From: Eutypella sp. D-1
Lineage: Eukaryota > Ascomycota > Sordariomycetes > Xylariales > Diatrypaceae
Direction: 5' to 3'
Assembly (NCBI GenBank): GCA_023313575.1
Contig: JAJTTP010000005.1
Span: forward strand, 1,860,001 to 1,924,000
DNA length: 64,000 nt
Positions within the stretch are counted from its first letter, which is position 1; each line of letters opens with the position of its first letter. The translations under genes were made by a program, and so were the position numbers. Positions 31,370 through 40,154 of the stretch are shown piece after piece. The notes under the pieces are model-generated. The model saw nothing but the letters and a program-made list of their open reading frames with translations. It made no database searches and was not told the origin of the DNA.

Positions 31370-33141
31370 CTATAGGTAGTCCTTCTTCCGACTGGTCCGG
31401 GTATATTGGTTGAGGTGCCTGTACTCTTCAAGTCAGTTCATGCTCCAATCGACGTTTCGGGACCCCACAGGTGTTGACCCCTGAGGATATAACTTCAAAA
31501 ATATGCTCGGAAACAAGTTCGGTCTGCACAGTAGGGCCGGCAGGCTGTGAATAAGACTTGGAGCTACCCACCATTCGATATCCCCATCCTTGTTCTCCAC
31601 TGTAGAAGAAGTGGTCAGCATATGTCATTCGAGACCGTCATGCGAAAACCAGCCAAAAATGGACCAAGTCAGCTTCTAGGATCACTTACGTGTACCATTC
31701 CGAATTTCGAAAAGTTTCATGGACAACCGCGGGCCAACCTCACTAAGCTCCACGCTGTCATGTCCTGTTCTTATGAAGACATGATGCCGGACCTCGATCG
31801 TATCGTCAATGTCTGAGATGTTAGCATGTCTCTTCCCTCATACATGAAAAAAAGCTCAGTCCGCACAGAGGCAGAACCTCACACATACTGCGAATATGTC
31901 AGCAATCAGCAAAGAGAATCAATCGGATAATGACGAAGTACCTTTTGAACGTCACCACACGGTTTCCAAGCTTGGCTTTGCTTGTCACTGGTTCGCGCGG
32001 AGGGAAGATGTGCTTCAGGATCTTAACAACCCTCTCTCCAAGACGGGTAGTGAAGCCTGGATCCAAACTTAGCACGTGCCAACACAAGACGTAAACTTGG
32101 TCTCATTACCGTCGAAGATAAGGTGGGGGTACGACTCGCTAACGGTGCCCCTAATGGAGTTCGGTATGTCATGGCGCAGGACGACGTTGTGCAGGGAGAA
32201 CGAAGCGGTCGGACCGTGGGGGAAGTGGGAAAGCGTTCTGCTGGGAGTTAGCAGGTTGTCTTTGCCGGACGGATTTCCGAAATAGACTGGAAGTTGTTGC
32301 GAACTCCCGAGCCATCTCGAGCCCACTATAATCAAGAAGAGATGTAAAGGCGGTTTCGAAGACTACTTACAGTGCTGTGGGTACACCCCGATGCTCGTGG
32401 AGCAGGACTATGTCGCTAAGGCCAGCAGCTTTGGCTGAGCGTGTAAGCTCGGGAAGAACCAGGTTTCCTCGGTTTAACCGTATCGCGGTCTACTCGTCGT
32501 CGCAGGTCAGCACTTGGTACTAGAAATAAAGGCCTTGTCACGCAAGCGCCAGGTCGAGGTCGCATCGCGTATAGGGTCCGAAGTTGCCAGACATACTGCA
32601 GAGCGGTCAGCGTGTGTGTCTGTATTGCCAGGAGGTCGGTCATGACTGTACATACCCGGTAATATTAGCCGAATTTCCTTCGCGAAGGATGCGAGTCGGG
32701 ACGAGGGGTCTCGGGAGGTAGTGACGAGAACGCGAGGGTCGACGATGCCGGAAAGCTGAGAGTACTCGTCATCGAGGTCCAATTCCTCATTGGCAGTACG
32801 CTCAGGCCGAGATTCATCGTAAGCGTAGTCTTTTCGCAGCTGCTGGTCGTTCGCGATAGTCGGATCCAAGGGCTTCCCGGTGGCTAGCGACGCTCGCAGT
32901 TTCGCCCTCTTCTCGCTGATCTCGGCATCGCGCAGAATCAAGGCCTATATATAGCCCTCGAAAGTTAGAAAGCCCGAACATCACGCGCAAGTATTGCCCA
33001 TATTAGGGGAGAGGATGGTTTAGTTACCTTTCGGTATAAGTAGTCGCGCCTCTGGCGAGCTTGTTTCCGCTAGATGATATTGTCAGTACAATGTAAAAGG
33101 TTCATGACAATTTGAGAGCGGCGGGCGGCGCATACAATCAT
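31370..33141 (-). CDS. IMP4: U3 snoRNP protein Imp4 (Brix domain), with two twin introns
   Basis: Nine exons on the minus strand: 33141-33136, 33069-33028, 32944-32657, 32489-32371, 32237-32110, 32056-31943, 31812-31690, 31599-31572 and 31418-31370. They encode 298 residues, matching yeast and human Imp4 (about 290). Imp4 joins Imp3 and Mpp10 in the small-subunit processome and promotes U3 snoRNA pairing with pre-rRNA in the nucleolus. Diagnostic segments are [14 protein letters not shown] at the N-terminus, [88 protein letters not shown] and the terminal [10 protein letters not shown]. The first exon is only ATGATT. Joins 3-4 and 6-7 are out of frame by one G under plain GT-AG splicing. Treating them as [D1,2] twin introns restores P-T-A-I-R and K-N-I-D, the residues expected for the family. 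If twin splicing fails, both joins lead to early stops. Confidence 0.93.
31813..31942 (-). other. Second IMP4 twin intron (stwintron, [D1,2] type)
   Basis: On the minus strand, exon 6 ends in AAA A. The outer donor G is base 31942. An internal intron of 54 bases (31941-31888) starts GTACTT, has a TGCTGAC branch site and ends CGCAG. The bases right after it are TATGTG, so removing the internal intron creates a GTATGT donor for the outer intron. The outer intron continues 31887-31813 with its own GCTAAC branch site and CTCAG acceptor, and joins AAA-A to AC-ATT, giving K-N-I-D. Confidence 0.82.
32490..32656 (-). other. First IMP4 twin intron (stwintron, [D1,2] type)
   Basis: On the minus strand, exon 3 ends in codon CCG at 32657. 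The outer donor G is base 32656. The internal intron (32655-32596, 60 bases) starts GTATGT, has a GCTGAC branch site and ends CTGCAG. It is followed by TATGTC, so excision rebuilds GTATGT as the outer donor. The outer intron (107 bases after internal removal) has a GTGCTGAC branch site and a GAGTAG acceptor at 32490. The joined codons are CCG ACC GCG ATA CGG (P-T-A-I-R). Confidence 0.85.
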
Positions 33142-36772: not shown

Positions 36773-39700
36773 ATGGAGGGCGCATTTACCCATCTGGGAA
36801 ACCATCTCGTTTCCGACTCGGCTGCTGCTATCAATGCTGGCGATGACGATCTCTCCACTCTTGACCCTGATGAGAGTCTGCTCTACCCGAAATATGCTGG
36901 TCGTGGAGGACTTGGCAACGCCAGACGCCGAAACGATGATGATGATAACGACACCGAGGTTTTCGACGATGACGATACCGAGTCCATGGCCAGCGTCCCT
37001 GTTGGCGCCATGAAGGGCCTGAACATCAAAACTCACGAAGAGGAGAAGAAGCTTCCCCCTCATGCGTGCGCGTAGGTCTCACCATAATTCTCTTACTTTG
37101 CTCTCTGACTTGCCGAATTCGGCCTCTCCTAGATGTGGAGTGGTGGTTTGCTGACTCTGTGGCATATGACATAGATACTGCGGTATTCACTCTCCGGGTT
37201 CTGTCGTTAAGTGTCTTGCTTGCAACAAGTGGTTTTGCAGTGCCCGAGGAAATGCGAGCTCGTCGCATATCGTCAACCATCTCGTTCGCGCTCGTCACAA
37301 GGAAGTCCAGCTTCACCCTCAATCTACCCTTGGCGATACTACCCTTGAATGCTACAATTGTGGCACCAAGAATGTGTTTCTTCTCGGTTTTATCCCTGCC
37401 AAGTCTGATACTGTTGTGGTACTACTCTGCCGCCAGCCTTGCGCTGCTGCCCCTTCCTCCAAGGACATGAGCTGGGATATCTCCAGATGGCAGCCCTTGA
37501 TTGAGGATCGTGCCTTTTTGCCCTGGCTAGTATCTCCGCCGAGCGACAACGAACAGCTCCGTGCTCGGCACTTAACCCCGAACATGATAGCGAAGCTGGA
37601 GGAGATGTGGAAGGATAACGCGAACGCCACCGTTGCCGATCTCGAGAAGGCCGCTAGCATTGACGACGATCCTCTCCCGGTCCTGCTAAAGTACGAGGAT
37701 CCTTTCCAGTACCAGAACATTTTCGGCCCTCTCGTTAAGATGGAATCCGACTACGACAAGAAATTGAAGGAAGCGCAATCCGAAGAGGGACTGATCGTTC
37801 GCTGGGACATGGGTCTCAACAACAAGCACCTGGCTAGCTTCACATTTCCCAAGCTAGAGTCCGGCGATGTCAAGCTTGCTGTTGGTGACGAGATGCGACT
37901 CAAGTACAAGGGAGAGCTACGCCCTGTTTGGGATGGAGTCGGCTACGTCGTCAAGATTCCCAACAACCAGTCTGACGAGGTCACTCTGGAATTGAGGAAG
38001 ACGGGTAATGACAAGTCTGTGCCCACCGAGTGCACCCATAACTTCTCTGCCGACTACGTCTGGAAAGCCACCTCCTATGACCGAATGCAAGCTGCCATGA
38101 AGACGTTCGCCGTCGACGAGATGAGTGTTTCGGGATATATCTTCCATAAACTGCTTGGCCATGAAGTTGCTGTCGCTCCGATGAAGACCAACCTACCTAA
38201 GAAGTTCAGTGTGCCCGGCCTACCGGAGCTGAACAGCAGCCAGATCAGCGCCATTAAAAATGTCTTGTCCACTCCTCTGAGCTTGATTCAGGGGCCCCCG
38301 GGAACAGGAAAGACTGTCACATCTGCCACCATTATCTACCATCTGGCCAAGATGAACAATGGCCAAGTCTTGGTGTGCGCGCCGTCGAACGTGGCCGTCG
38401 ATCAGCTATGCGAACGGATCAACCTCACAGGTCTTAAGGTGGTTCGCCTTACTGCCAAGTCTCGTGAGGATGTTGAATCCTCCGTCAGCTTCCTTGCTCT
38501 CCATGAGCAAGTCCGCATGCTCGACACTAATCATGAGTTGACAAAACTGTCCCAACTGAAGGGTGAACTCGGCGAGCTTTCCAGCCAAGATGAGAAAAAG
38601 TTCAAGCAGCTTACCAGAGCTGCTGAGCGCGAGATTCTCAGCAATGCAGATGTTGTGTGTTGCACTTGCGTTGGCGCAGGCGATCCGCGACTGGCTAAGA
38701 TGAAGTTCCGTAACGTCCTCATTGACGAGTCCACCCAGTCAGCGGAACCTGAATGCATGATTCCTCTCGTTCTAGGCTGCAAGCAGGTCGTTCTTGTCGG
38801 AGACCACAAACAGCTTGGTCCTGTCATCATGAACAAGAAAGCAGCCAAGGCGGGGCTGAACCAGTCACTTTTCGAGCGTCTCGTTAAACTGAATTTTACC
38901 CCTATCCGTCTCAACATCCAATATCGAATGCATCCTTGTCTTTCCGAGTTCCCCTCAAACATGTTCTACGAGGGGTCCCTTCAGAATGGTGTTTCGGCTC
39001 CGAACCGACTACGAAAGGATGTCGACTTTCCCTGGCCTGTTGCGGATATGCCTATGATGTTTTGGTCTAACTTGGGTAACGAGGAGATCTCGGCGTCTGG
39101 TACCTCCTATCTCAACCGCACTGAGGCCTCTAACGTGGAGAAGGTGGTGACCCGCTTTTTCAAGGCGGGCGTCCGGCCTGGTGATATCGGTGTTATCACC
39201 CCCTACGAAGGCCAGCGAAGCTACATTGTCAATACAATGCAGAATGCGGGTACCTTCAAGAAAGAGACGTACAAGGAGGTCGAGGTCGCATCAGTGGATG
39301 CTTTCCAGGGCCGTGAAAAGGATTTTATTGTCTTGTCCTGCGTACGATCTAATGATAACCAGGGTATCGGTTTCCTTTCCGACCCACGCCGACTGAACGT
39401 CGGTCTTACTCGTGCCAAGTACGGACTCGTTATCATCGGAAACCCCAAGATCTTGGCCAAGCATGACCTGTGGCATCATCTACTTGTTCACTTCAAGGAG
39501 CGCAAATGTCTCGTCGAGGGTCCGCTGACCAACCTTCAAACATCGCTACTTCAGTTCAGCAAGCCCAAGAACACCTTCCGTCAACGACCGCAGCAGACGA
39601 CTTACGTCTCCAGCGGCTATACCAATGGCCGCGCGGGTGCGTATAATGGCCACGCTTCCCATCAAGACTTCGATTCGGGCTCGATGATGTCCTATATCCC

Positions 39701-40154
39701 CGACGATGTCTCTAGTCTTCACAGCTCTACGCTAGGCGGTGCTGGCCTGGGAAATACTGCTTTCCCGCAAATGTTCTCCAGTTTCAACCCGGAACAGTGG
39801 CCAGGTCTCCCAGGTTTCAACCCAACCCCAGGCAGTCGTGTAGGGGGGAAGAGGCAAGCTCGCGGAGCCGAGAGCATCACAGGAGAAAGTGTTGCCACTT
39901 CGGAATTTACCGATGGTACGGGCAGTGTCATAGGAGGCAAGGGTGTCGGACAAGGTGGCGCCAGCCTCGGTGCCGGATTGCAGGATGCTCTCCGCTCTCG
40001 GCCGACATCGTACACGCAGAGTGATCGTCTCAAGCAGTTCGTCGAAAGCTCAGCCCGCCCAGGCTACGCCAATGGTTACGGCCGTCGCTACGACGATGAC
40101 GAAAAGAGCGTCAGCACTGCATTTGCCAGCCAGATCGGCAGTGGATTCGACTGA
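36773..40154 (+). CDS. UPF1: ATP-dependent RNA helicase of nonsense-mediated decay
   Basis: Two exons, 36773-37071 and 37175-40154, encode 1092 residues. The intron has GTAGGT and an ATAG acceptor. UPF1 (NAM7) is the core SF1 helicase of nonsense-mediated mRNA decay in the cytoplasm and binds UPF2 through its Cys/His domain. The acidic N-terminus leads into the CH zinc module starting [20 protein letters not shown] (about 100-170), split by the intron, with the second cluster at [10 protein letters not shown]. Helicase motifs are GPPGTGKT (about 473-480), the Walker [11 protein letters not shown] (about 617), [25 protein letters not shown], and the arginine finger [13 protein letters not shown] (about 838). 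The Gly/Ser-rich C-terminal tail ends in SQIGSGFD. Length and order match fungal orthologues. Confidence 0.98.

Follow-up and report, generated by a model that had tools for sequence, protein, structure and literature searches.

Two predicted stwintrons in IMP4

The gene IMP4, which encodes the U3 snoRNP protein Imp4 (Brix domain), contains an intron, intron 3, that is almost certainly a spliceosomal twin intron (stwintron) of the [D1,2] type removed in two steps, and the same holds for its intron 6. The gene lies on the minus strand at 31370..33141 of the window (the whole 64-kb stretch of DNA analysed, to which all positions refer) and consists of nine exons and eight intervening sequences. 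When all eight are removed, the joined translation gives a product of 298 aa, which is the length of 78 of 120 Imp4 orthologues (the best 120 of a longer match list). A version of the protein that differs after residue 283 was used as the query for domain and structure searches, and it matched the Pfam Brix domain (PF04427, E = 4.7e-29) and PDB chain 5jpq_c, a Chaetomium-type Imp4 (E = 1.1e-139). The alignment to this chain over residues 1-285, with the query misread after residue 283, is gap-free at the junctions of introns 3 and 6.

The [D1,2] motif was found in none of the other introns of the gene (1, 2, 4, 5, 7 and 8), even when a G was prefixed, introns 1 and 5 being too short to match, and there is no third stwintron by this test. 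Intron 4 (32238..32370, minus strand, 133 nt) and intron 8 (31419..31571, minus strand, 153 nt) are rather long and are plain by the same test. A shorter intron 4, 32370-32326, breaks the frame and was discarded for the frame-consistent 32370-32238, and a longer C-terminus (328 aa) was set right by taking out intron 8, 31571-31419. About 4 kb from IMP4, the window also carries UPF1, the nonsense-mediated decay helicase, on the plus strand at 37170-40154, as identified by Pfam.

Signals and reading frame at intron 3

Intron 3 (32490..32656, minus strand, 167 nt, phase 0) separates exon 3 (32657..32944), which ends in IRLILP with the codon CCG, from exon 4 (32371..32489), which starts with ACC GCG ATA CGG (TAIRLNRGN; ACCGCGATACGG at 32489). 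It contains two full sets of U2 signals, GTATGT/GCTGAC/CAG and GTATGT/GCTGAC/TAG, and the internal U2 intron sits between nucleotides 1 and 2 (G|T) of the external donor. This internal intron (32596..32655, 60 nt) runs from the donor GTATGT to the acceptor CTGCAG, and its branch-point motif GCTGAC (32606..32611, intron position 46) is 7 nt upstream of the CAG. The remainder of the external intron (32490..32595, 106 nt) reads TATGTC...GTGCTGAC...GAGTAG, with a second GCTGAC (32506..32511, intron position 146) 13 nt upstream of the final TAG. Together with G32656, the first base of the split donor, this remainder constitutes a 107-nt GT-AG intron. The coordinates and the two signal sets given in the first-pass annotation are exact to the base, and its observation that removal of the internal 60 nt rebuilds the donor as G|TATGT was confirmed in the sequence.

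Plain GT-AG splicing of 32655-32490 keeps the extra G at 32656 and yields a product of 136 aa, which follows Imp4 up to P112 and terminates 24 residues past that point; the one-base frameshift and early stop described previously were found again. When both parts of the intron and G32656 are removed, CCG is joined to ACC GCG ATA CGG (P-T-A-I-R), which is the join foreseen in the first-pass annotation and the one that gives the 298-aa Imp4 and the best-scoring protein (see below). The intron fits the [D1,2] type in that one-step distal splicing would keep the G and shift the frame, and exact removal would need two reactions. The overlapping [A2,3] reading requires a G after the final acceptor (PMC9024468). 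Since this base is A for both intron 3 (32489) and intron 6 (31812), that reading is excluded for both; the criterion serves to separate [D1,2] from [A2,3] and is not demanded of every [D1,2] stwintron.

Splice models were enumerated within 32720-32440 as single and double GT/GC-AG introns no shorter than 40 nt, and those with products of at least 250 residues were scored by a profile of 117 orthologues. Among the 1276 models for intron 3, including the stwintron, 182 were scored, and the stwintron was at the top with 625.3 bits; the runner-up, at 617.3 bits, calls for a microexon of 8 nt together with a GC donor, and no single GT-AG model attained the score of the stwintron. Model A of PMC9024468, a published search formula for [D1,2] stwintrons, has one match in the 64-kb window, 32656-32490, compared with a mean of 0.2 matches in 40 dinucleotide shuffles of the window on both strands. 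The lone match is only modestly unusual, and its position in a frame that needs it weighs more. When the core of intron 3 was shuffled with the intron ends fixed, an internal acceptor, a branch point and a split donor occurred together in 88 of 20000 sequences, and in 7 of 20000 with the donor in the TATGT form.

A probable second stwintron in intron 6

Our analysis backs a second [D1,2] stwintron of IMP4, absent from the first-pass annotation, in intron 6 (31813..31942, minus strand, 130 nt, phase 1), where G31942 is the first base of the split donor. The internal intron (31888..31941, 54 nt) has the donor GTACTT, the branch point GCTGAC at 31903-31898 and the acceptor TTCGCAG, and the remainder of the external intron (31813..31887) reads TATGTG...GCTAAC...CTCAG, so that G31942 and 31887-31813 make up a 76-nt GT-AG intron. 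Removal of G31942 along with the rest gives VVTFK-NIDDTIEV, and its retention leads to a stop two residues past K232. The donor GTACTT is weak at position 5 and falls outside the published donor list, and for this reason the published formula misses intron 6, which is matched by the relaxed [D1,2] formula only. The stwintron was again the top model (903 models, 232 scored; runner-up, 616.0 bits), and the internal motif set arose in 157 of 20000 shuffled versions of the intron 6 core.

Gene models of related fungi

Three protein searches, each represented by the best 120 of a longer list, gave 193 different Imp4 orthologues. Among these listed matches, an indel lies within 3 residues of residue 112 in 2 of the 192 proteins that span it (Diatrype stigma and Eutypa lata), and within 3 residues of residue 232 in 8 of 190. 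The gene models of four Monosporascus (P0039, P0047, P0051, P0157) and of Eutypa (P0122) break exactly at residue 232, and the Diatrype model (P0121) leaps from residue 112 to 232, a single event that is counted at both sites. The Eutypa model also carries a 3-residue insertion at residue 112, which we read as a gene-caller artefact, and a 5-residue insertion at 234 in P0130 and P0190 is taken as ordinary variation. When nine relatives were compared, the identity of Imp4 to that of the window was 93 to 95% for Monosporascus, 94% for P0001, 93% for Eutypa and 91% for Diatrype; the model of Xylariales sp. AK1849, at 88%, is normal.

We applied the site choices of these relatives to the window, with the donor placed after the extra G. 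The Monosporascus choice gave the same break (K-R-T-G, 284 residues), the Eutypa choice the same break at 232 (K-S-E-V-G) and the Diatrype choice the same jump (P-D-I-D-D); the 3-residue insertion of Eutypa at 112 was not reproduced by site choices in the window. Judged from these protein-level reproductions, Monosporascus and Eutypa seem to carry the extra G at site 6, and Diatrype seems to carry it at site 3. The Diatrype model combines its one jump with a differing, odd C-terminal tail and is therefore not independent evidence at both sites, and the relatives that bear on intron 3 are two models only, Diatrype and Eutypa.

The intact 298-aa protein of P0001 comes from a 1804-nt contig, agrees with the Monosporascus CRB-9-2 model in 275 of the 276 residues aligned and contains 14 residues that are missing from all four Monosporascus models. 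Its uninterrupted frame suggests that the contig is a spliced transcript. The protein is correct at both junctions; since it is Monosporascus-like, and the Monosporascus models are normal at intron 3, it bears on intron 6 only and says nothing on the intron 3 stwintron. The comparison suggests that six public IMP4 models, those of the four Monosporascus and of Diatrype stigma and Eutypa lata, are misread at the stwintron sites. The proposal that intron 3 is a [D1,2] stwintron is supported by the top-scoring model, by the case of intron 6 and by the breaks of the relatives at the same residues.

Alternative explanations

Three other readings of intron 3 were weighed against the stwintron. A single G too many in the assembly at 32657-32655 would conceal a true gene with a plain 166-nt intron, and changing that one base would indeed let plain splicing work. 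The internal acceptor, the branch point and the split donor would then be coincidental, at the frequency of 88 in 20000 given above, and a second such error would be required at intron 6. The Diatrype model, moreover, goes on from P112 directly to D, the outcome that a donor after the extra G gives in the window, and Eutypa has 3 residues inserted at 112. Because the breaks of the relatives are reproduced with the extra G kept, a sequencing error is unlikely, and we consider this reading very improbable.

Equally improbable are two ordinary introns flanking a microexon (such as TATGTCTG, 32595-32588), of which the second intron would have a GC donor. This arrangement has the second-best protein score (617.3 versus 625.3 bits), and the Eutypa model inserts 3 residues exactly at this junction. 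However, it would add 3 residues at a place where 190 of the 192 spanning orthologues among the listed matches are free of indels within 3 residues and the other 2 are the suspect models of Diatrype and Eutypa, and it requires a GC donor while a perfect TATGT goes unused. The remaining reading, a single intron 32656-32490 with a non-canonical GG-AG boundary, produces the right protein in one step through the same join, but such a boundary would be needed twice in one gene with a GT donor one base away, and the internal signals would be left unexplained; we regard it as the least probable of the three.

Proposed order of splicing

For the [D1,2] stwintron at intron 3, the signals, the need of the frame and the comparison with relatives described above point, in all likelihood, to the following order of reactions and to the intermediate between them. 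The spliceosome would first excise the 60-nt internal intron (32655-32596), whereby G32656 would meet TATGT and complete GTATGT, the donor of the external intron of 107 nt. The external intron would then leave in an ordinary splicing reaction of its own, which would connect CCG with ACC and bring back the Imp4 frame. The same two-step route would apply to intron 6 (31942-31813). If the outermost sites of intron 3 were paired in one step, a G would be left in the mRNA, with a +1 frameshift and a stop 24 codons later. Such distal mis-splicing may occur in IMP4; that it might regulate the gene via mRNA decay is a speculation to which we give little credence.

Relative age of the two stwintrons

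Site 6 is disturbed in 4 of 4 Monosporascus models and in Eutypa, and site 3 in both Diatrypaceae models (Diatrype and Eutypa) and in 0 of 4 Monosporascus models, which are placed taxonomically in Xylariales incertae sedis. Since the disturbance at site 6 is shared with Monosporascus and that at site 3 occurs only in the Diatrypaceae models, the intron 3 stwintron appears, by these gene models, to be younger than that of intron 6. A tentative extension, which we consider possible but do not favor, is that a plain intron 3 became a stwintron in a short interval, being simple in Monosporascus and twin in Diatrype, Eutypa and the fungus of the window, with the intron 6 stwintron older and common to Monosporascus. 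If this were true, intron 3 would offer a before-and-after pair in which the donor-duplication route to stwintrons could be read directly from DNA. The apparent age gap makes the two introns a case for studying the change from plain to twin intron, and the finding places two stwintrons in a single gene of ribosome assembly that is highly conserved.

Copies, structure and other candidates in the genome

A search of the genome for sequence-similar copies of intron 3 or intron 6 found the query itself alone for each. Neither showed a special RNA fold better than that of shuffled sequence (z = 0.61 for intron 3 and 1.42 for intron 6). No terminal inverted symmetry was detected when the internal intron was compared with the reverse complement of the external one, the score being reached in 234 of 500 shuffles for intron 3 and 138 of 500 for intron 6; this test differs from the looser published alignment procedure. 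Descent of the internal and external introns from each other by duplication likewise gained no support, the local alignment being no better than that of shuffles (155 and 330 of 500 reached the score, respectively); in the IMP4 stwintrons, nothing favors a duplication that extends past the donor itself.

The pattern of the internal part of [D1,2] stwintrons had 24 matches genome-wide versus 9 for the reversed control, and a looser pattern 88 versus 50, some of the 88 overlapping one another, so the excess over the control is modest. One of the 24 is IMP4, and the clearest others are L009, L012, L014 and L025, possible [D1,2] stwintrons each at about position 1501 in the orientation of the match and flanked on either side by a long open frame. 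At these four loci, at least 126 codons are open on either side of the stwintron join versus 0 to 117 if the G is retained, L025 (117) being the least clear; several of the remaining matches have intermediate values and some have none. By Pfam, L014 belongs to the haem-peroxidase family, and it aligned to cyclooxygenase across the junction, weakly (8.8 bits for the second stretch); it had no NCBIfam match.

Comparison with known stwintrons

[D1,2] stwintrons are well documented in Xylariales (PMC9024468, PMC12403724); distal mis-splicing that occasionally leaves the G in place has been described, as have a few genes carrying more than one stwintron (PMC9024468, PMC12403724, PMC5639578). The IMP4 pair resembles the uniquely occurring [D1,2] type found in Hypoxylon sp. 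CO27-5 and other Hypoxylaceae in the donor split between G and T and, for intron 3, in the motif formula (PMC9024468). In introns 3 and 6 of IMP4, the internal branch point is 7 nt from the acceptor, the commonest distance in Hypoxylon (49 of 81 stwintrons), and the length of intron 3 is within the range of 114-313 nt reported for the uniquely occurring type (PMC9024468). As in that type, no sequence copies of the IMP4 stwintrons were found. In contrast, the external distance of 13 nt in intron 3 departs from the 6 nt of the majority (50 of 81), and no symmetry was seen in the IMP4 stwintrons, whereas some was reported, by the looser method, for all 117 in that study (PMC9024468). The host also differs from Hypoxylaceae, the nearest named relatives by protein among the listed matches being Monosporascus, Diatrype and Eutypa. 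The sister (propagating) stwintrons of Hypoxylaceae and Xylariaceae have the same type of nesting (PMC12403724), but for the IMP4 pair, unlike these, no genome copies, terminal inverted symmetry or special fold were found. Because no copies and no special fold were found, the IMP4 stwintrons probably belong to the older type, which occurs uniquely.

A [D5,6] stwintron in a reticulon-like gene is reportedly also a donor-disrupted twin intron like those of IMP4, in another gene. That type splits the donor at a different position from [D1,2] (PMC9024468). The complex introns of Lipomyces are likewise donor-disrupted twin introns in another gene, and donor duplication has been proposed as their route of origin (PMC7138796). 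Our literature search found no report that connects stwintrons to Diatrypaceae, spliceosomal twin introns to Eutypa, or Imp4 to a stwintron; the main text of PMC9024468 does not name Imp4, and the supplementary tables of that paper and of PMC12403724 may hold an entry. The [D1,2] type is therefore already known in related fungi, and what seems to be new is IMP4 as a member, with two stwintrons.
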